From contig NZ_CP113068.1 of assembly GCF_026625885.1 (NCBI RefSeq), positions 310,001 through 374,000 on the forward strand: a stretch of DNA of 64,000 nucleotides. The letters run 5' to 3'. Below, piece after piece: positions 1,877 to 51,885 of this stretch; position 1 is the first letter of the stretch; the number at the start of each line of letters is the position of its first letter. A program made the translations under genes and the position numbers. The stretch comes from Roseateles sp. SL47 (GTDB lineage Bacteria > Pseudomonadota > Gammaproteobacteria > Burkholderiales > Burkholderiaceae_C). The notes under the pieces were generated by a model. It ran no database searches. It had not been told where the DNA came from and saw only the letters and a program-made list of their open reading frames with translations.

Positions 1877-3835
1877 TCAGTGCCGGCTATCGAGCCCCGG
1901 CCAGTGCTGGGCGGCGAAGCCATTGCGGCCCGCCCGTTTGGCCTGATAGAGCGCCCGGTCGGCCAGCGCCATGAGATCGCGCGCCGGGGCCTCCCCATCG
2001 GCCAGGGTGGCCACACCGACGCTGGTGGTGACGCTCAGGCCCGCCATCCGCTCGTTGCGCACCGCCTCCACGATCTTGGCCGCCACACTGGCCGCTTCGT
2101 CCGGGCGGTTCAGGTCTTCCAGCACGGCAATGAACTCATCACCGGCCAGACGCGCCACCAGGTCACTGGCCCGCACCGTGCGGCGCAAGCAGTGAGCAAA
2201 CGCACGCAGCACCTCATCCCCCACGCTGTGGCCGTGGGAGTCATTGATCTTCTTGAAGCCGTCCACATCCAGGAACAGCAAGGCCATGGCACGACCCTCG
2301 CGGGCGTGGCGGCGCTGGCGGGCCAGTGCGCTGTCCAGCGCCCGGTCCAGCTCCCGCCGGTTGGGCAGGCCGGTCAGCGCGTCGGAGCTGGCCAGTTGGG
2401 CCAGTTGCGCTTCGGCTTGCTTCATCGGGGTGATGTCCATGGACAGGATGTAGAGACCGACCACCCGGCCCGCCGCGCCCACATCGGGCACATAGATGCT
2501 CTTGAAATGCCGCAGCCGCCCCAGTTCGAGATTGGCGGTGTCGAACTCCACGCGCTCGCCCTGCAAGGCCAACGCCAATTGCACCCGGCGCTGGGCGTAC
2601 AGCTCCGGGCCCAGCAACTGTTCCAGCGTCTGTCCCAGTGCGTCCTCCAGATTCACGGCAAGCCAGCTGCGTACCGTTTCATTGGCATATTGCAGGCGCT
2701 GCTCCGCATCCACATAGGCCAGCGCAATGGGCAGGTTGTCGGTCACCGCCTTCAGGCGCTTTTCGCTGCGGGACACGCGCACCTCATCGCGGCGCCGCTC
2801 GGTGATGTCCATGGACACGGCGTAAAAGCCTTCGGGCTGTCCCGCCCCCCGGTCCGGCACAAAGCATTGATGAAAGTGGCGCAACTGCCCTTCCACCACC
2901 AGGTCGGCATCAAACTCCACCCGCTCGCCCGAGAGCACCCGGTCCACCTGCGGCAGCATCAGCGCCACGTCCTGAGCGCCGTGCAGGCCTTCCAGCGTCT
3001 TGCCCACCGCCGTCTCCGGCTCAAAGCCGAAGATGCGCGCAGCGGCCGCGTTGGCAAACAGCAGCCGGCCATGCCGGTCGAACTGGCCAATCAAGGCCGG
3101 GACGTTGTCGGCAATGCCACGCAGACGATGTTCCGAGCGCTCGGCTGCGCGGGTACGGCTGATGACCTGCGTCACCGCCAGCACGGTGAACACCGTCAGC
3201 GTGCCCAGGCCCCCCAGCAGCAGAAGCTCCGCCTGGCTGGCGTCCCGCTGCAGCCGCGCATTGATGGCCGCCCGCTCCGACTGAAGGTCCGTCAGCAATT
3301 CCCCCAGCAGGTCGCGCAGTTCGTCCATGTGGCCGGGGTCGCCCATCACCAGCTCCAGCGCCTCGTCATGCCGGCCGCTTTCGTGCAGGCGGAGCGTCTG
3401 GCTCATGTCGCTCAGTTTCATCAGCGCCAGTTCGCGCACCCGTTCCAGCCGAGGGCCGTGCATCGGGTCCGGATTGCGCTGCACCAGTTCGTCCAGCCGC
3501 TGCTCCAGCCCCAGCACCGCGTCCCGGTAGGGTTGCAGCGCGCTGCCTTTCTGGGTGAGCAGGTAACCCCGCTGGCCGGTCTCGGCATTGAGCAGGTCCT
3601 GCATCAGGCGGTTCAACTGCGGCAGCGTGCGGTTGATACGGTCGGCGCGCTGCAGATGGCCGAGGGAGACCTGGGCCCGCCAGGCCAGCAGGCCGGACAG
3701 CACCGTAATCGCCGCCAGCGACAGAAGCAGCCACCCCACGCCGCGACCCATCAGGGAGCGAAGCGTCTTGGAGAAGGGCGTGAGCATGCGGAAGCGGTCA
3801 GCAGGGCAATGGCGGACAGGGTCCTTGCGGGGCAT
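1877..3835 (-). CDS. CHASE3-PAS-PAS-GGDEF diguanylate cyclase
   Basis: A 652-residue membrane protein predicted to make cyclic-di-GMP. In order: a membrane helix (about 30-52), a CHASE3-like periplasmic helical sensor (about 55-200; note the NAETGQRGYLLT motif), a second helix (about 203-223), two PAS domains (about 235-350 and 360-475) and a GGDEF domain (about 485-640). The signature at residues 564-568 reads AGDEF rather than GGDEF; the inhibitory site RASD lies just upstream. Ala in the first position is tolerated in many active cyclases, so activity is likely but not certain. An internal ATG at 3787 is an alternative start that keeps the first helix. It is transcribed away from ltrA. Confidence 0.88.
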   Translation of the reverse strand: MPRKDPVRHCPADRFRMLTPFSKTLRSLMGRGVGWLLLSLAAITVLSGLLAWRAQVSLGHLQRADRINRTLPQLNRLMQDLLNAETGQRGYLLTQKGSALQPYRDAVLGLEQRLDELVQRNPDPMHGPRLERVRELALMKLSDMSQTLRLHESGRHDEALELVMGDPGHMDELRDLLGELLTDLQSERAAINARLQRDASQAELLLLGGLGTLTVFTVLAVTQVISRTRAAERSEHRLRGIADNVPALIGQFDRHGRLLFANAAAARIFGFEPETAVGKTLEGLHGAQDVALMLPQVDRVLSGERVEFDADLVVEGQLRHFHQCFVPDRGAGQPEGFYAVSMDITERRRDEVRVSRSEKRLKAVTDNLPIALAYVDAEQRLQYANETVRSWLAVNLEDALGQTLEQLLGPELYAQRRVQLALALQGERVEFDTANLELGRLRHFKSIYVPDVGAAGRVVGLYILSMDITPMKQAEAQLAQLASSDALTGLPNRRELDRALDSALARQRRHAREGRAMALLFLDVDGFKKINDSHGHSVGDEVLRAFAHCLRRTVRASDLVARLAGDEFIAVLEDLNRPDEAASVAAKIVEAVRNERMAGLSVTTSVGVATLADGEAPARDLMALADRALYQAKRAGRNGFAAQHWPGLDSRH

Positions 3836-3958
3836 TATCCGTGGCGCTGGTGACAGGCCGTCAAGGGAGGCGTGGAGGGGCGTCGTTCTACATCACCCCG
3901 TTCGACATCACCCCTTTGGCAGACGCGCAGCCACAGACCTGTCCCTACAGTCCCTGCT

Positions 3959-5134
3959 ATGCCTGCCTCCGTCCGACATCGCCGGTCCCTTCTTCGTACC
4001 CCCGACCCTCACGGCCATGCCAAGGTCAGCTTTGCCGAGCTGTTTTTTGACCTGGTGTTCGTGTTTGCCGTCACGCAGCTGTCGCACCGGCTCATCGGCC
4101 ATTTCACGCTGGAGGGGGTGCTGCAGACGCTGTTTCTGATGCTGGCGGTGTGGTGGGTCTGGGTCTTCACCTCGTGGGTGACCAACTGGCTGGACCCGGA
4201 GCTCACGCCGGTGCGGGCCTGCCTGTTTGCCTTCATGCTGCTGGGGCTGCTGATGTCGGGCGCCATTCCGGAGGCCTTTGATGGCCGGGCGCTGATGTTT
4301 GCCGGCAGTTACGTGGGCATCCAGGTGGGGCGCACCTTGTTTTTCCTCTGGGCGGCGCGCGGCGGCGGCCCGGTGCTGGTGAGGAATTTCCAGCGGATCC
4401 TGACCTGGTTGGCCTGCAGCGGCCTGCTGTGGATCGCGGGCGCCTTGGTGGACGAATGGCGGTTGCCCTGCTGGGTGGCAGCGCTGTCCCTGGAATATGT
4501 GGCGCCTTCGCTTGGGTTTGCGGTGCCGGGGCTGGGTCGGTCCGCCACGACGGACTGGGCGATTTCAGGTGGACACCTGGCGGAGCGCTGCGCGCTGTTT
4601 GTGATCATTGCGCTGGGGGAATCCCTGCTGGTGACCGGTGCCACCTTCTCGTCGCATGACGTGACGGCTGACACGGCACTCGCCTTTGTCGTGGCCTTTG
4701 CCGGCAGCCTGGCGCTGTGGTGGCTGTACTTCGACACCACCCACGACCTGGCCACCGGGCGCATCGCCCAAAGCCAGGACCCGGGTCGATTGGCGCGGCT
4801 GAGCTATACCTACCTGCATCTGCTGATCGTGGCCGGCATCATCCTCAATGCGGCGGGGGATGAGTTTGTGCTGGCGCATCCCATGGGCCCCACCGGGCTG
4901 CAGACGGCCGTCTGCGTGCTGGGCGGCTTTGGGCTCTACATCCTGGGCGTGGGGCTGTTCAAGTGGTCGGTGATGGGGCGCTGGCCGTGGTCCCACGCGG
5001 TGGCCATTGGGGTGCTGGGGCTGGCGAGCTTGGGCGCAGACCGGTGGCCGGCGGTGCTGACCAGCGCTGTGGCATGTGGGGTGCTGGTGGGGCTGGCGGC
5101 GTGGGAGCGGCATTCGCGCCGTCTGGCGGGGTGA
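3959..5134 (+). CDS. LtrA-family membrane protein (low temperature requirement A)
   Basis: 391 residues, almost all hydrophobic helices. The N terminus carries the family hallmark VSFAELFFDLVFVFAVTQLS, and DTTHD occurs mid-protein. LtrA proteins are multi-helix inner-membrane proteins of unknown biochemical role, named from a Listeria cold-growth mutant. A GTG 87 bp upstream would add a basic, non-conserved tail and sits one base behind a purine-rich AAGGGAGG, too close for a normal ribosome site, so the ATG at 3959 is preferred. It is a single gene with no obvious partner. Confidence 0.82.
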   Translation: MPASVRHRRSLLRTPDPHGHAKVSFAELFFDLVFVFAVTQLSHRLIGHFTLEGVLQTLFLMLAVWWVWVFTSWVTNWLDPELTPVRACLFAFMLLGLLMSGAIPEAFDGRALMFAGSYVGIQVGRTLFFLWAARGGGPVLVRNFQRILTWLACSGLLWIAGALVDEWRLPCWVAALSLEYVAPSLGFAVPGLGRSATTDWAISGGHLAERCALFVIIALGESLLVTGATFSSHDVTADTALAFVVAFAGSLALWWLYFDTTHDLATGRIAQSQDPGRLARLSYTYLHLLIVAGIILNAAGDEFVLAHPMGPTGLQTAVCVLGGFGLYILGVGLFKWSVMGRWPWSHAVAIGVLGLASLGADRWPAVLTSAVACGVLVGLAAWERHSRRLAG

Positions 5135-7500: not shown

Positions 7501-10500
7501 TCACTCATGGTCGTGGCGCGGTGCCGCCGGATGCGGATGGGCACCCGCACCGCCTCCGAAGTCATGGCCAGCGCCCTGCTCCGGCTGGGCAAAGGCCTCC
7601 AGGTGCGGCGTCTCCCCATGCTGCTTCAGCGGACGGTTGCCGGAGAGGCGACGCATCAGCACGTAGAACACCGGCGTGAGGAACAGGCCGAAGGCCGTCA
7701 CACCAATCATCCCGGCGAACACCGCCACCCCCATGGCATTGCGCATTTCTGCACCAGCGCCATGCGCCAGCACCAGGGGCAGCACACCCATCACAAAGGC
7801 CATCGAGGTCATCAGGATCGGGCGCAGACGCAGCCGGCTGGCTTCGATCGCGGCCTGCAGCGGACTGCGTCCGGCAAACTCCAGCTCCCGGGCGAATTCC
7901 ACGATCAGGATCGCGTTCTTCGCGGACAAGCCCACCAGCACGATCAAACCGATCTGCGTGAAGACGTTGTTGTCCCCATGGCTGAGCCAGACGCCGGTCA
8001 TGGCGGCCAGCAGGCCCATCGGCACTATCAGGATGATGGCCACCGGCAGCGCCAGGCTTTCGTACTGGGCGGCCAGCACCAGGAACACCAGCAGGATGGC
8101 CAGCGGGAAGACCCACAGGGCGGAGTTGCCAGCCAGGATTTCCTGGTAGGTCAGCTCGGTCCATTCATAGCTGATGCCCGGGGGCAGCGTTTCGGCCGCA
8201 ATGCGAGCGATGGCATCCTGGGCCTGACCGGTGGAGAAGCCGGGGGCCGGACCGCCGTTGATGTCGGCCGACAGGAAACCGTTGTAGCGCATGGCGCGTT
8301 CCGGGCCGAAGCTCGGTTCGATCTTCATCAGCGCGGACAGCGGCACCATCTCGCCGGTGTTGGAACGCACCTTGAGCTGGCCGATGTCTTCGGCACGGGC
8401 CCGGAACGGCGCATCCGCCTGCACCCGCACGGTGTAGGTGCGGCCGAACTTGTTGAAGTCATTCACATACAGGCTACCCAGGTAGATCTGCATGGTGTCG
8501 AACACATCGGTCACCGCCACACCCAGCTGACGGGCCTTGGTACGGTCCAGGTCGGCATAGAGCTGGGGCACGTTCACCTGATAGCTGGTGAACAGGCCGG
8601 CCAGTTCCGGTGCCTGCGAGGCCTTGGCCATGAAGGCCTTCACCGCCGAATCCAGGGCTTCATAACCCAGGCCACCACGGTCTTCCAGCTGGAGCTTGAA
8701 GCCACCGGTCGTGCCCAGCCCCTGCACCGGCGGGGGCGGGAACATCACCACGAAGGCGTCTTCGATCTTGCCGGCAAACTGGCCGTTCAGGTTGCCGGCG
8801 ATTTCGCCAGCCGACAGGCCCTTGCCGGTGCGCTCGTCAAAGGGCTTGAGCGTGGCGAAGACGATGCCGGAGTTGGAGCTGTTGGTGAAGCCGTTGATCG
8901 ACAGCCCCGGGAAGGACACGGCGTGGTCCACGCCCGGTGTCTTCATGGCGATGTCGCTCATGCGGCGGATCACATCTTCGGTACGGTCCAGGGTGGCACC
9001 GTCCGGCAGTTGGGCAAAACCGATCAGGTATTGCTTGTCCTGGGCCGGCACAAAGCCGCTGGGCACGGCCTTGAACAGGCCCACCGTCACCGCCACCAGC
9101 GCGGCATAGAGCACCAGCATGATCGCCTTGCGGGAGATCACACGGGTCACGCCACCGCTGTAGGCCTTGGCGCCGCGGTTGAACAGGCGGTTGAAGCCAC
9201 CAAAGAAGGGGCCCAGCACGCGGTCCATGCCCCGGGTCAGCCAGTCCTTGGGTTCGTCATGCCCCTTCAGCAGCATGGCGGCCAGGGCCGGCGACAGGGT
9301 CAGCGAGTTCACCGCAGAAATCACGGTGGACATGGCAATCGTCAGTGCGAACTGGCGATAGAACTGGCCGGTCAGGCCGGTGATGAACGCCAGCGGCACG
9401 AACACCGCCACCAGCACCAGCGCAATCGCGATGATGGGGCCGGACACTTCCTTCATGGCGCGGTAGGTGGCCGCACGCGGGCTGAGGCCCGCCTCGATGT
9501 TGCGCTCGACGTTCTCCACCACCACGATGGCGTCGTCCACCACGATACCGATGGCCAGCACCAGGCCGAACAGCGACAGCGCGTTGATGGAGAAGCCAAA
9601 GGCATGCATCACCGCAAAGGTGCCGATGATCGACACCGGCACGGCCAGCAGCGGGATGATGGAAGCGCGCCAGGTCTGCAGGAACAGGATCACCACCAGC
9701 ACCACCAGGGCCACGGCCTCCAGCAGGGTGTGCACCACCGATTCGATGGAGGCCCGCACGAACTGCGTCGGGTCGTAGACGATCTCGTAGTTCACGCCTT
9801 CCGGCATGCTCTTCTTCAGCTCGGCCATGGTGGCGCGCACGTTGTCCGAGATCTCGATCGCGTTGGAACCCGGCGCCTGGAAGATGGGAATGGCGACGGC
9901 GGACTTGTTGTCCAGCAGCGAGCGCAGCGCGTATTCAGCAGCACCCAGCTCGATGCGGCCGAGGTCGCGCAGGCGGGTGACCTGGCCGTTGGCACCGGTC
10001 TTCACGATGATGTCGCCGAACTCTTCCTCATTCCTGAGGCGGCCCTGGGCGTTAACCGGCAGTTGCAGGTCAATGCCTTGCAGGCCGGGCGAGGCACCCA
10101 CCACACCGGCGGCGGCCTGTACGTTCTGCTCGCGGATGGACTGCACCACGTCATTGGCGCTCAGGCCATGCTCGGCCACCTTCTGCGGGTCCAGCCAGAC
10201 GCGCATGGAATAGTCGCCGGAACCGAACAGCTGCACCTGCCCCACGCCCTGAATGCGAGCCAGGCGGTCCTTGACATTGAGCACCGCGTAGTTGCGCAGG
10301 TAGGTCATGTCATAGCGGTCGTTGGGCGACAGCAGGTGGACCACCATGGTGAGGTCGGGGCTGCTCTTGACGGTGGTCAGGCCCAGGCGGCGGACTTCTT
10401 CCGGCAGACGCGGCTCGGCTTGTGAGACGCGGTTCTGCACCAGCTGCTGCGCCTTGTCCGGGTCGGTACCCAGCTTGAAGGTGACGGTCAGCGTCATGTT

Positions 10501-46675: not shown

Positions 46676-46963
46676 ATGGGACAAGAAAGCACCTATCGCG
46701 GCGTGACCTATGGGGTCGAAGCCGTGCCGGTGGGCCAGGACGCCTGGCACGGCCGATTCCACCTGCTGGACGGCAGCGCCTCCGGAGACGTGGATGCACT
46801 GCATCCATCGATGGATACGGTCTGGGGCAGCGAAAACGAAGCGCTGACCTACGCCACCGAGGCGGCCTGCCACGCCATCGAGATCCTGCAAACCGGCCGT
46901 CCTCAGGGTCAGGGTCACGGCAGTCCGTCCTCGGAGCGACGCTTCAACAGCCTGGGTCAATGA
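46676..46963 (+). CDS. Small soluble protein, possible homologue of the 47.2-kb gene
   Basis: 95 residues; AAGGAG six bases before the ATG. The pattern (WHGRFHLLDGSA, SENEALTYATEAACHAIEIL) is similar to the product encoded at 47223-47453 on the other strand (FQGRFILRAQDEG, SEEEALRHADQVARQYI): both have a GRF strand followed by Ser-Glu-x-Glu-Ala-Leu and a helix. They may be a diverged pair. Function unknown. Confidence 0.6.
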   Translation: MGQESTYRGVTYGVEAVPVGQDAWHGRFHLLDGSASGDVDALHPSMDTVWGSENEALTYATEAACHAIEILQTGRPQGQGHGSPSSERRFNSLGQ

Positions 46964-46976
46964 CAGGAGCGTTCCC

Positions 46977-47171
46977 TTACGCGCTCCCCCGCGCGCCCAA
47001 CGCCCTCGACACCGCCGTGGCGCTGGCCTGATTGGCATGGTCGGCACTCATGCGCACCGCTGCAGTCAGCTGCTCCATGGCGGACGCTGTCTGCTCCAGG
47101 GCTCCGGCCTGCGCTTCCCTGCGGGCCGACAGGTCGGCATTGCCCTTCGCCACCACATGCAGGGTGAGATC
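46977..47171 (-). pseudogene. Methyl-accepting chemotaxis protein fragment
   Basis: In one minus-strand frame the sequence reads DLTLHVVAKGNADLSARREAQ, then ALEQTASAMEQLTAAVRMSAD and ends in TAA. The second part is the start of the chemoreceptor signalling helix (normally ADLSARTEQQASSLEETAASMEEL). No start codon, membrane region or the hairpin tip remain, and the upstream LAEEVAK (about 47172-47200) is in another frame. It is a decayed gene, about 64 codons. Confidence 0.75.
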
Positions 47172-47669: not shown

Positions 47670-48683
47670 TCAGGCGCTTTCGCGCGCCAGCAGTTCGCAA
47701 TGGAAGGCGGTCATCCGGGGCGGGGTCTGGCCCTCGGCCAGGGCCAGGATCAACTGCGCCGCGCTGGCGCCGATCTCCCGGGCCGGTGGACGGATGGTGC
47801 TGAGGCTGGGCAGCAGCTTGTCGGAAAAGGCGTAATCCCCAAACCCAAACAGCGCCACATCGTCCGGCACGGACAGCCGCTGCCGCTGGGCTGCCAGCAC
47901 TGCGCCGCACGCCAGGTTGTCGTTGGCAAAGAAGATGGCCCGGGGCCGGCCCCGGCTGCGGGCCAGCAAGGCATCCAGCGCCTGCGCCCCGGCGGCCAGT
48001 GGGTCGGCTTCCGTGGGGGTGTAGAACATCGGCTCCAGGCCGCATTCCTTCAGCGCTTCCGCATAACCTTCACAGCGCTCCTGCGCACTGAGGTCGCCGG
48101 CGGCGCTGTTGTGGACAAACGCAATCCGTCTGTAGCCCTGCCCAGTGAGGTAGCGCACGCCCTCCCGTCCCACTTCACGGTGGGAGAACCCGATCTGATA
48201 GGGCTTGCGGCGCGCGGCCAGGTCCCAGGTTTCAATCACCGGCACACCGGCCGACTCGATCAAGCGCTCCGTGCCCGTGCTGTGATGCCGGCTGGTAAGT
48301 ACCAGCGCCGCAGGTTGCCAGCCCAGGAAGGCCCGCACCGCACGCTCTTCCGTCTCCAGCGAGAAATAGCTGGAGGCCAGCAGCAGTTGATAACCCGCCG
48401 ACGACAGACCATCGGAGAGCGACTGCAGGGTGTGCGCAAAGATGGGCCCGGAGATGTTGGGGACCACCATCGCCACCACCTTGTTGTGCGCCGACGCCAG
48501 CCCCCCGGCCGCCAGATTGGGCACGTAGTTCAGCGCCTCCACGGCGGTCTGGATGCGCAGCCGGGCTTCTTGGCCCACCCGCGCCGGCTCATTGAAAAAA
48601 CGCGACACGGTGATGGCCGACACCCCGGCCTGGGCCGCCACATCGGCGAGCGTGGGTCGGTCCGTGGCCCGGCGTTTACGCAT
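47670..48683 (-). CDS. LacI-family transcription regulator
   Basis: 337 residues. The LacI helix-turn-helix and hinge are at 1-60 (PTLADVAAQAGVSAITVSRF and VEALNYVPNLAAGGLAS). The effector domain follows (about 65-330), of the GntR/gluconate-repressor type with IFFANDNLACGAVL and ALFGFGDYAFSD. A TTG 12 bp upstream is an alternative start. Its likely operator, a perfect 14-bp palindrome, lies 95 bp upstream, in front of the collapsed gene cluster, so the regulator seems to have outlived its target genes. Confidence 0.9.
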   Translation of the reverse strand: MRKRRATDRPTLADVAAQAGVSAITVSRFFNEPARVGQEARLRIQTAVEALNYVPNLAAGGLASAHNKVVAMVVPNISGPIFAHTLQSLSDGLSSAGYQLLLASSYFSLETEERAVRAFLGWQPAALVLTSRHHSTGTERLIESAGVPVIETWDLAARRKPYQIGFSHREVGREGVRYLTGQGYRRIAFVHNSAAGDLSAQERCEGYAEALKECGLEPMFYTPTEADPLAAGAQALDALLARSRGRPRAIFFANDNLACGAVLAAQRQRLSVPDDVALFGFGDYAFSDKLLPSLSTIRPPAREIGASAAQLILALAEGQTPPRMTAFHCELLARESA

Positions 48684-48777
48684 GAACGGACTCAAGTCGG
48701 CGACGACGGAAATCGAGTAACCAAATCATCTTTTCTGCTTTGACGTTGAACTGCTGCGCTCCCGATGATGCGGGCCA

Positions 48778-48791
48778 TGTTAGCGCTAACA
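48778..48791. promoter_or_regulatory. LacI-type operator, perfect 14-bp palindrome
   Basis: TGTTAGCGCTAACA is a perfect palindrome with the central CG of LacI/GalR-family sites. It lies 45 bp before the TonB receptor relic and between it and the LacI gene. Confidence 0.8.
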
Positions 48792-48836
48792 CAGCGCGAG
48801 TGTCGTTGATCGCTTCTGCAATAAACGGAGATCGTC

Positions 48837-49079
48837 ATGCGTCCCACGTCTATCGGGAAAACGTCTTCCAGTCCGGCAACTGGGAGACCTGACCACCGTC
48901 CGCAACCCTGGTTGGGGGCCGCCATGGTGGTGGCGGCCGGCCTGGTGTCGGCCACACTGCCGGTGACGGCGCAGGCGGAGCCGGAAGCCGCCGATGTCAA
49001 GGCGGCTGCGGCCCCCACCGACAGCCATCAGCTCCCCACCGTCACCGTGACATCGGCCAAACGCAGCGAATCGCTGCAG
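48837..49079 (+). pseudogene. TonB-dependent receptor, N-terminal fragment only
   Basis: From an ATG with GGAG upstream: a signal peptide (ending about residue 43, VTAQAEPEAA), a linker and the TonB-box/plug start LPTVTVTSAKRSESLQ. At 49080 the homology stops and the sequence switches, out of frame, to the end of a monooxygenase. More than 600 codons of the receptor are missing. Confidence 0.75.
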
Positions 49080-49293
49080 ACCCGGCGCCGCCGACGGCTT
49101 CAACCTGATGGCACCGGTGCTGCCCACCGGCTTTGAAGCCATCACCCGCCTGCTGGTGCCGGAGTTGCGCCGCCGTGGCCTGGTGCGCGAACGCTATGAA
49201 GGTCGCACCCTGCGCGACCACCTGGGCCTGCTCCGTCCCGCTCACCGCCGCCCGGCGGATCACGTCGCCGCTTTGCAGGAGCCTCAAGCATGA
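49080..49293 (+). pseudogene. LLM-class flavin monooxygenase (NtaA/SnaA type), C-terminal fragment
   Basis: In the frame of codon 49087: ADGFNLMAPVLPTGFE, then LLVPELRRRGLVRERYEGRT and LRDHLGLLRP. This is the conserved end of NtaA/SnaA/DszA-type flavin-dependent monooxygenases, which are often sulfur-compound enzymes. The N-terminal part is missing. The stop overlaps the next ATG by 4 bp (ATGA), evidence of the former operon. Confidence 0.78.
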
Positions 49294-49613
49294 AACGCCG
49301 CCAATTCCTCACCTCTGCCTCCACCGCCGTGGCCGCCGCTGCAGCCGCCCTGCCGATCGCCTCCCCAGCCGCCGCCGCATCGGGCGACAAGGTGCTGCGT
49401 GTGGGTTTCCAGAAGGGAGGGCTGCTGCTGCAGTTGCAGCAACGGGTGCGCTTCGGCGCCCGGCTGCTGGACGACACCATTGCAGCCGACCAGCAACGCA
49501 TGGCCGATGCCTTTGCCGCGCAGCGCCTGATCCCCCGACCGGTGCGCGTGCGGGAGGCCTGGGCGCCGGCGCTCTACCCGGGGAAGGGCGGCGGTGGGGC
49601 GTCAGGTGGGTGA
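49290..49613 (+). pseudogene. Sulfonate-type ABC substrate-binding protein with internal deletion
   Basis: The first 53 residues (signal MKRRQFLTSAS and KVLRVGFQKGGLLLQLQQR) match the start of SsuA-like sulfonate-binding proteins. They run in frame into the last 40 (DDTIAADQQRMADAFAAQRL, IPRPVRVREAW), which match the SsuA end. About 200 central residues are absent. It cannot bind a ligand as a two-lobed protein; only a 107-residue remnant could be made. Confidence 0.75.
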
Positions 49614-49734
49614 GTCCCGGCCAGGTCCAGGGGGGAGTTTCAGGAAAGCCTCGGCTGTGTCTCAGGTGAGCGCATCCGACGCCACAATGCAGGCCACCGC
49701 CCGCAAGGATGGCGTTGCACAACGAGAGACCCCC

Positions 49735-50715
49735 ATGCCCAGCCCATCGATTCCCCTTCAGCAGTCCTTCCCTTCCGTCAGCCCCCTGGCCTTTGGCTGC
49801 ATGGGCCTGGGCGGTTCCTGGGACGAGTCCCCCTACACCGAAGACCATGTGGCGCATGCCCATGCCGCCGTCGAAGCGGCACTGGACATCGGTGTCACCC
49901 TGTTTGATCACGCGGACATCTACACCCGTGGCAAGGCCGAGTCCGTCTTTGGTGAACTGATGCGGCGCCAACCGTCCTTGCGCGACCGCATCGTGCTGCA
50001 GAGCAAATGCGGCATCCGTTTTGCAGATGCCGAGGGCCCCAAGCGTTTTGACCTGTCCCGCGACTACATCGTCTCCGCCGTGGAAGCCAGCCTGAAGCGG
50101 CTGGGCACCGAACGCCTGGACATTCTGCTTTTGCACCGCCCGGACCCGCTGTGGGAGCCGGAAGACATCGCCCTGGCCTTCCGGCAGTTGCGTGAGCAGG
50201 GCAAGGTGCTGCAGTTCGGCGTCTCCAACATGCATGCCGCCCAGATGGCCTGGCTGAGCCGCTCGCTGGACCAGCCGCTGGTGGTGAACCAGTTCGAGAT
50301 CGGGCTGGGGCATCTGGAGCCGATCGAATCGGGCACCACCTTCAATGACCGGCAGGCGGCTCACCGCCCGGGCAGCCTGGCCTGGAACGGCACGCTGGAG
50401 CATTGCCAGCAGCACGGCATCCAGGTGCAGGCCTGGGCGGCACTGGCGCGCGGCCGGTTCAGTGGCGACACCGCCAAGGACCCCGCCGACGAGCCGGCCC
50501 GGCAACTGGTGCATCAACTGGCCGAACGGCACGGCGTGTCCACCGAAGGGGTGCTGCTCGCCTGGCTGATGCGCCACCCGGCCCGCATCCAGCCGGTGAT
50601 CGGCAGCAGCCAGCCCGCACGCATCCGCGCCTGTGGGGACGCACTCCGGCTGCAGCTGACACGCGGCGAGTGGTATGCGCTGTATGAAGCGGCGCGCGGT
50701 CAGGCGCTGCCCTGA
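49735..50715 (+). CDS. Aldo/keto reductase (YdhF-like)
   Basis: 326 residues, a TIM barrel using NADPH to reduce carbonyls. The catalytic tetrad is visible: Asp and Tyr in LFDHADIYTRGKAE, Lys in VLQSKCGIRF, His in LLHRPDPLWEPED. The C-terminal nucleotide-binding part is GSSQPARI. The start at 49735 begins MPSPSIPLQQS; upstream frame is not protein-like. The substrate is unknown. It may have been a downstream member of the deleted cluster, but nothing proves it. Confidence 0.9.
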   Translation: MPSPSIPLQQSFPSVSPLAFGCMGLGGSWDESPYTEDHVAHAHAAVEAALDIGVTLFDHADIYTRGKAESVFGELMRRQPSLRDRIVLQSKCGIRFADAEGPKRFDLSRDYIVSAVEASLKRLGTERLDILLLHRPDPLWEPEDIALAFRQLREQGKVLQFGVSNMHAAQMAWLSRSLDQPLVVNQFEIGLGHLEPIESGTTFNDRQAAHRPGSLAWNGTLEHCQQHGIQVQAWAALARGRFSGDTAKDPADEPARQLVHQLAERHGVSTEGVLLAWLMRHPARIQPVIGSSQPARIRACGDALRLQLTRGEWYALYEAARGQALP

Positions 50716-50751
50716 GGTCTCAAAGAGCGACCTGGCGAGAGATCCGGTGGG

Positions 50752-50787
50752 CGCGTTGGTGGGAGCGTTGGTGGGAGCGTTGGTGAG
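50752..50787. repeat. 12-bp tandem repeat, three copies
   Basis: CGCGTTGGTGGG, AGCGTTGGTGGG and AGCGTTGGTGAG follow one another between the reductase stop and the convergent nitronate monooxygenase gene. Confidence 0.85.
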
Positions 50788-50820: not shown

Positions 50821-51885
50821 TCAGTCAAACGCCTGCGCCAATTCCTGCACCAGCTCGGCGGCACCCACTTCCTTGAGCCCGCTGAAATTCTGACCGGCCC
50901 ACAGCGGCGAGAAATCGCCACTGCCCTCGGCTTCGGCCTTGGCGCGCAGCGGCGCCAAGGCATTGCCCGCCAGGGGGAAGGCCGGCGCCAGCTCATTAAT
51001 CGGTCCCACCTCGCGCATCAACCGGTTGACGATGCCGCGCGCCGGTCGCCCGGTCATCAGGTTGGTCAAGGCCGTGTGATGGCCGTCGGGCTGCCGCAGC
51101 ACCTGACGGTGCGGCGCACTGGTGATGGATTCATTGCACAGCAGGAAGGCCGTGCCCAGTTGCACCGCGCTGGCCCCGAGCGTCAGCGCCGCCCGGATGC
51201 TGGCCGCATCCACGATGCCACCGGCGGCAATCACCGGAATGCGCAGCGCCTTGACGACCTGCGGCAACAGCGCCAGCAGACCGGTCTGGCGGGTCAGGTC
51301 GGTGCTGAGGAAATGGCCGCGATGGCCACCGGCTTCCCAGCCCTGCGCAATCACCGCATCGGCCCCGTGGGCCTCCAGCCAGACGGCTTCTTCCACCGTG
51401 GTGGCGCTGGACAGCACCCGGCTGCCCCAGCCCTTGACCCGCGCCAGCAGGTCCGGTGCCGGTAGCCCGAAATGGAAGCTGATGATGGCTGGTTTAAACG
51501 CCTCCACCACGTCCGCCATTTCATGGCTGAAGGGCTGTCGGCCAAAGCCGCCGGTGATCGTGCTGGGGTCCACACCGAACTCGTTGTAATACGGGGCCAA
51601 CCGCTCGCGCCAGCGGGCTTCACGGGCCGGATCGGGCAGCGGCGGCACATGGGCGAAGAAGTTGACGTTGTAGGGCTGCTGCGTGCCAGCACTCAACAGC
51701 TGCAGCTCCCGTTGGAGCACGTCCGGCGTCAGTTGCGCAGCAGGCAAGGAGCCCAGCCCCCCTGCATTGCTCACGGCAACGGCCAGCTTGGCAAGCTGAG
51801 CGCCAGCCAATGGCGCCTGGATCAGCGGGAGCCGGGTGCCCAGCACCTGGGCGGCGAAGTCTGCGGGGGCAAGGGCAGTGGTCAT
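50821..51885 (-). CDS. Nitronate monooxygenase
   Basis: 354 residues, FMN TIM barrel. LIQAPLAGAQLAKLAVAVSNAGGLGSLP opens the family (written in part), GADAVIAQGWEAGGHRG contains the catalytic His, and AAGGIVDAASIRAAL plus GASAVQLGTAFLLCNES bind the phosphate. It oxidises nitronates such as propionate-3-nitronate to less toxic products. A single gene; ATG at 51885 preferred. Confidence 0.9.
   Translation of the reverse strand: MTTALAPADFAAQVLGTRLPLIQAPLAGAQLAKLAVAVSNAGGLGSLPAAQLTPDVLQRELQLLSAGTQQPYNVNFFAHVPPLPDPAREARWRERLAPYYNEFGVDPSTITGGFGRQPFSHEMADVVEAFKPAIISFHFGLPAPDLLARVKGWGSRVLSSATTVEEAVWLEAHGADAVIAQGWEAGGHRGHFLSTDLTRQTGLLALLPQVVKALRIPVIAAGGIVDAASIRAALTLGASAVQLGTAFLLCNESITSAPHRQVLRQPDGHHTALTNLMTGRPARGIVNRLMREVGPINELAPAFPLAGNALAPLRAKAEAEGSGDFSPLWAGQNFSGLKEVGAAELVQELAQAFD

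Follow-up and report, generated by a model that had tools for sequence, protein, structure and literature searches.

Probable recent collapse of a three-gene operon, with survival of its promoter, operator and LacI-family regulator gene, in Roseateles sp. SL47

A locus in the genome of the soil bacterium Roseateles sp. SL47 is very probably a recently collapsed three-gene operon, in which two separate deletions took out the central parts of all three genes while the promoter, the operator and the repressor gene survived. The gene set probably once served to import a sulfur compound and cleave it. This is a clear but ordinary case of recent gene decay of a known kind, and its value beyond that lies in a readable breakpoint, a second lost cluster, and the stages of loss that are preserved in sister species. 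The window that we analyzed is a stretch of 64,000 nucleotides (positions 310001-374000) from a complete single-contig genome of 6,388,479 bases, and the genus comparison comprised 16 genomes, with the host genome (G000) counted in. The relatives referred to most often are Roseateles sp. YR242 (G012), R. terrae CECT 7247 (G001), R. depolymerans DSM 11813 (G003), and a metagenome-assembled genome labelled Rubrivivax sp. C4_MAG_00089 (G009).

Results

A first-pass annotation of this DNA had named a TonB receptor start, a monooxygenase end, a binding protein without its middle, a LacI regulator and an operator, and all of these features are present in the window (Table 1). It had also described the three remnants as each joined to the next, which we could confirm, and they are co-linear with a single operon that is intact in another genome. 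Comparison with related genomes, the route to which it had pointed, uncovered an intact three-gene version in YR242, where LacI, operator, receptor, monooxygenase, binding protein and aldo/keto reductase stand at the same place as an intact orthologous operon. Three segments align to this YR242 locus (L023) in order and on the same strand, as expected of a pseudogene cluster: window positions 47715-49079 to 3049-4398, 49082-49439 to 7695-8040, and 49423-50717 to 8708-10039. The alignment ends at 49079/49082, and the neighboring aligned segments overlap at 49423-49439. A chance string of partial homologies was rejected, as order, strand and junctions all fit one intact operon. The intact YR242 genes encode a TonB receptor of 783 residues, an SsuA-type binding protein of 326 residues, and an NtaA/DmoA-type flavin monooxygenase (a 476-aa ORF when read from an upstream GTG, with the profile match starting at residue 32); the intact YR242 cluster includes neither a permease nor an ATPase gene. 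The monooxygenase and binding-protein genes overlap as ATGA at L023 7903-7906, and the same overlap, already noticed in the first pass, lies at 49290-49293 of the window. In Ideonella azotifigens, a 3.8-kb contig that ends within both outer genes (L086) carries LacI, the operator, the receptor (70% identical) and the monooxygenase (68% identical) in unchanged order, and this match supports the arrangement as ancestral. YR242 is the only genus genome with all three genes, which counts against the collapse reading.

Table 1. Features of the collapsed locus, in window coordinates
Feature	Position	Strand	Remark
LacI-family regulator gene, intact, 337 aa	47670..48683	-	80-87% identity to four orthologues
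Promoter-like site: TTGACG, 18-nt spacer, GATGAT	48740..48769	+	1 found vs mean 0.1 in shuffles
Operator TGTTAGCGCTAACA, perfect palindrome	48778..48791	.	sole genome site at ≤1 mismatch
TonB-dependent receptor gene, 5' remnant, 81 codons	48837..49079	+	aligned to intact 783-aa YR242 gene
Junction 1, ~3.3 kb deleted	49080..49083	.	breakpoint placed within a few bases
NtaA/DmoA-family FMN-dependent monooxygenase, 3' remnant	49084..49293	+	residues 408-476 of intact protein, plus stop
SsuA-type binding protein, 107-aa ORF, 228 residues deleted in frame	49290..49613	+	both ends kept
Junction 2, TGCTGCTGCAG	49423..49433	+	at both ends of 684-bp stretch in YR242 and G009
Aldo/keto reductase, intact	49735..50715	+	matched in 15/16 genus genomes, cluster present or not

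The receptor gene opens with its ATG at 48837 and keeps homology up to 49079, from where an out-of-register frame continues to a stop at 49134-49136, giving a 99-aa ORF. This remnant is 61% identical to YR242, and the same part is 55% identical between the intact copies of YR242 and G009 over 76 codons, which we likewise counted against a collapse. At junction 1, a deletion of about 3,296 bp leads out of frame from about codon 81 of the receptor to about codon 408 of the monooxygenase, and with it went the remainder of the receptor gene and the greater part of the monooxygenase gene. A fusion protein at this junction was rejected, since the two frames differ. The surviving monooxygenase codons run from 49084 to 49290, with the stop at 49291-49293, and this tail is identical to YR242 at 60 of 66 positions (dN/dS 0.13) and contains no stop. 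It matches TIGR03860 at positions 377-422 (E 8e-15) and, with 54.6 bits, falls below the family cut-off of 279.7 bits, which the intact YR242 protein passes with 557.6 bits.

The second deletion measures 684 bp and is in frame, and a single copy of TGCTGCTGCAG is left in the window. In a full repeat scan of the YR242 gene, which covered 278,332 possible junctions with a separation of at least 100 bp, TGCTGCTGCAG was the only identity of 11 bp or longer; on G009, this pair of copies was measured. Replication slippage or single-strand annealing would yield a deletion between direct repeats, and either may have produced the loss between the two 11-bp copies. Together, the two deletions amount to about 3.98 kb (3,296 + 684 bp, in YR242 coordinates), in agreement with the several kilobases initially proposed. 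The accompanying suggestion of deletion between short direct repeats holds for junction 2, with a repeat of 11 bp rather than 6, and fails for junction 1, where none is visible, a further point against the collapse reading. Of the two CTGCAG sites cited in its favor, the one at 49074-49079 is correctly placed, and the other lies within the repeat at 49428-49433 rather than at 49430-49435. The hexamer is indeed common, with 64 occurrences in the window, and is therefore weak evidence taken alone. CTGCAG at 49074-49079 is the conserved left (receptor) flank in YR242 and G009, but it is absent from the right flank of junction 1 in YR242, the sole relative that keeps this monooxygenase, and on that ground a role as the shared repeat of both deletions was rejected. 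With no monooxygenase at this place, G009 offers no right flank to compare. A match of a few bases at junction 1 may nevertheless have existed in the true ancestor, whose letters at this point were not recoverable from more distant monooxygenases (seven loci, with a motif match in L019, L020 and L033).

The shortened binding-protein ORF has no match to the SsuA family model TIGR01728 at E ≤ 0.001, for which the intact YR242 protein scores 205 bits against a cut-off of 163.5, and it reaches 24.1 of 299 bits with NF008588. Its 3' part is identical to YR242 at 42 of 48 positions and to G009 at 43 of 48, and the two intact copies agree with each other at 39 of 48. As the scraps have barely diverged and there is no visible drift, the collapse looks recent on the scale of these comparisons. 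One could also read the low divergence as a sign that the shortened ORF, or the receptor stub, has become a new, small gene with a function of its own and is retained for that function, the more so as the deletion in the binding-protein gene preserves the frame, and the resulting 107-aa ORF has no stop, keeps its N terminus and both ends, and begins, by eye, with something resembling an export signal. We consider this very improbable: neither ORF has a Pfam match, a recent loss predicts low divergence equally, and the adjoining monooxygenase tail, whose start region is lost, is equally conserved. Still less probable is an assembly artefact, in which a collapsed or chimeric join dropped some 4 kb of a truly intact operon. 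We found no positive point for it, and the sequence is a single 6.39-Mb contig with a completeness rating of 100%; a repeat of just 11 bp, as at junction 2, is too short for collapsing an assembly, none is visible at junction 1, and another sulfonate cluster of the host has decayed independently and contains a frame change.

Full-length genes of this cluster, whose presence immediately upstream in the same assembly would, according to the first-pass annotation, have spoken against a collapse, were sought throughout the host genome. With the intact receptor as query, there was no match at E ≤ 1e-60; the queries with the monooxygenase (E ≤ 1e-20) and the binding protein (E ≤ 1e-10) picked up just the remnants, and compensating full-length copies elsewhere in the host genome were thus rejected at these thresholds. 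R. depolymerans and a further genus genome, G007, gave no monooxygenase or binding-protein match either. The alkanesulfonate monooxygenase SsuD scores above its cut-off in 13 of the 16 genus genomes and has no match at E ≤ 1e-60 in the host, R. depolymerans and G007. In G009, ssuD belongs to a second cluster (L069), together with NtaA-type, SsuA, SsuC, SsuB and methionine-transporter-like genes. The host retains the right end of this cluster at C1:3446468-3447820 (L081 10469-11821), consisting of an ssuC remnant and ssuB; the ssuC remnant starts at residue 137, with the first 136 lost, and is split over two frames, and ssuB is apparently intact in one open frame. R. depolymerans lacks the 13 kb of L069 4424-17388, the matching flanks being 137 bp apart (C1:1534605-1534743), and most of this stretch is present in R. 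terrae. Judged by these searches, the host genome and R. depolymerans appear to have lost both organosulfur clusters examined, which makes a testable physiological prediction.

The regulator passes the LacI-family domain cut-offs (PF00356 with 56.2 against 27 bits, PF13377 with 108.1 against 26.5 bits), and its best NCBIfam model is the Pseudomonas GntR model NF052440, to which it scores 285 bits and thereby stays below the cut-off of 400. It is seldom found: a search of 399 sampled family genomes at E ≤ 1e-100 yielded two that match, both of this genus. With dN/dS values of 0.085-0.176 in the ten pairs of five genes, the LacI gene is under purifying selection. Relaxed selection was sought by parsimony branch counts of synonymous/non-synonymous codon changes, which were 27/10 for the host versus 42/9 for YR242 (Fisher p 0.31), 31/5 for R. 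depolymerans and 28/11 for G009 (p 0.16), and 47/14 for R. terrae. In these small counts, no relaxation was detected, and none was significant on the host lineage or the R. depolymerans branch. As the losses are recent, the selection data cannot separate an idle repressor from a reused one.

The promoter-like site has the same layout, with the same short gap to the operator, in the window, YR242 and Ideonella azotifigens, and in G009 the spacing is as in the window, but TTGACC takes the place of TTGACG. The operator, initially described as perfect, is indeed a perfect palindrome, TGTTAGCGCTAACA. By exact-match search, it occurs in 3 of the 16 genus genomes—precisely those with the cluster or its scraps—and it is also found in Ideonella azotifigens, and the promoter-operator pair is conserved as far as Ideonella.

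Sister species preserve different stages of the loss. LacI lies beside the reductase in five genomes (the host, R. terrae, R. depolymerans, G009 and YR242). Ten more genus genomes match the reductase but show no adjoining LacI match, and the stretch is unmatched in G007. The five LacI genomes form one clade, with support 100/100, in the reductase tree (16 rows, with one outgroup among them) and in the tree of the flanking gene at 50821-51885 (14 rows), which by eye is nitronate-monooxygenase-like. Within the clade, R. depolymerans and G009 are sisters, with support of 92/92 and 91/92, values below the star of the tree tool. The LacI tree (five rows, unrooted) groups the host with YR242, separate from the remaining three, and does not conflict with the flanking-gene tree. 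The states are a whole cluster in YR242, a cluster minus the monooxygenase in G009, scraps in the host, and LacI only in R. terrae and R. depolymerans. Because most of the cluster survives in the probable sister of R. depolymerans, this species and R. terrae probably lost it independently, unless G009 regained the cluster.

The metagenome assembly G009 (L024) has a whole receptor and a whole binding protein with the monooxygenase absent, an observation that we counted against the collapse reading; in this assembly the binding-protein start comes almost immediately after the receptor stop. In R. terrae and R. depolymerans (L025, L026), LacI is intact and constrained, and the operator and the upstream stretch common to the other species are gone; an exact-match search of both genomes found no operator.

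The suggestion in the first-pass annotation that LacI and its operator may now control nothing stands in one part, as there is no second operator site at up to one mismatch, and needs amendment in another, as the intact promoter faces the aldo/keto reductase gene, which follows on the same strand about 120 bp past the binding-protein remnant. Read-through from the operon promoter into the reductase is possible. A promoter capture would go further: the deletions would have moved the LacI-controlled promoter about 4 kb nearer to the reductase, read-through would drive this gene, and the switch would have been kept for that reason. The intact promoter and operator, the orientation and proximity of the reductase, the purifying selection on LacI, and the direct adjoining of LacI and reductase in R. 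terrae and R. depolymerans all fit such a capture, as does the lack of any terminator-like site in 48650-49800, between promoter and reductase, but shuffles average just 0.6 terminators, and this absence therefore tells little. We nonetheless regard promoter capture as unlikely, because the reductase is present in 15 of the 16 genus genomes and must have its own expression in the ten without an adjoining LacI, because it lies downstream in the intact state too, and because no exact operator exists in the two species where LacI adjoins it. A recent collapse of the operon remains our preferred reading.

The surroundings hold further traces of change. Some 0.5 kb past the LacI 3' end, at 47007-47159 on the minus strand, lies a collapsed gene for a methyl-accepting chemotaxis protein (named by eye), of which 51 codons remain, corresponding to residues 286-336 of 521 with 90% identity; nothing else of this gene was found, and R. 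terrae and R. depolymerans have the protein at full length. Where the window has positions ~46946-47007, R. depolymerans carries an 849-aa ORF between matching flanks (L026 169-2718), by eye of the 2-oxoglutarate dehydrogenase E1 type, with no match in the whole 64-kb window, and the difference is either a further deletion in the window genome or an insertion in R. depolymerans. Just past the reductase gene, at 50746-50785, there is a short tandem array with 3.3 copies of GGTGGGAGCGTT.

Discussion

We infer the substrate class and the mode of repression from the intact YR242 version. In the working state, a GntR-like LacI repressor on the operator just downstream of the −10 element would block the promoter, and a ligand would release the repressor from the operator. 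The receptor would then carry an organosulfur compound across the outer membrane, the SsuA-type protein would bind it in the periplasm, an ABC importer with its genes elsewhere would take it in, and the NtaA/DmoA-type FMN-dependent monooxygenase would cleave the C–S bond. The module of the window would now be able to yield just short stub peptides. A GntR-like LacI over a receptor, a monooxygenase and a binding protein looks unusual as a control of organosulfur genes, and the GntR-like regulator of the intact cluster may hint at a sugar-acid-like inducer.

The four states in the clade (whole, one gene short, scraps, regulator only) make an unusually complete series for the loss of one regulated operon, and for one of the deletions, that at junction 2, the breakpoint repeat can be read. 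Two sister species hold the same repressor without the operator, yet the gene is under purifying selection. We also considered a "ghost regulon", in which repressor and unique operator outlived the operon and were selected for some other control, for example, of a read-through reductase. This is a tentative idea with a small chance of being right; if it were true, the sister species would be a natural series on the reuse or death of a regulator after the loss of its target.

Comparison with known systems

For E. coli K12, a report describes RecA-independent deletion between short direct repeats and calls the mechanism unknown (PMC5426353). Our locus resembles the case described there in that the intervening DNA is lost and one repeat copy is left, and differs in that only the evolutionary outcome is seen here, and for one of two deletions. 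In a literature search, no sulfonate operon with both LacI control and a TonB receptor was recognized among the matches listed, going by titles and abstract openings; one match dealt with RpoN of Bradyrhizobium.

Like NtaA/DmoA monooxygenases (TIGR03860), the YR242 enzyme matches the nitrilotriacetate monooxygenase of PDB 3sdo (E 8.7e-105), and also DszA (5tlc, E 8.1e-90) and a dimethyl-sulfide monooxygenase (6ak1, E 1.3e-66), whereas the window keeps just the last 69 residues. Similarly, the YR242 binding protein matches the aliphatic-sulfonate binding protein SsuA (TIGR01728; PDB 2x26, E 3.1e-67), but unlike SsuA systems, the intact cluster comes without a permease or ATPase gene, and the window copy is short of 228 residues. 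The regulator is closest, by best model, to the gluconate repressor GntR of Pseudomonas, whose published sites contain an AGCGCT core and overlap the promoter (PMC12195362, PMC5902321). It departs from GntR in that it stays under the model cut-off, its adjoining genes are of the organosulfur and not the gluconate type, and the flanks of the sites differ. As GntR is the best model and the AGCGCT core is common to both sites, a sugar-acid-like inducer is, by analogy, a fair guess.
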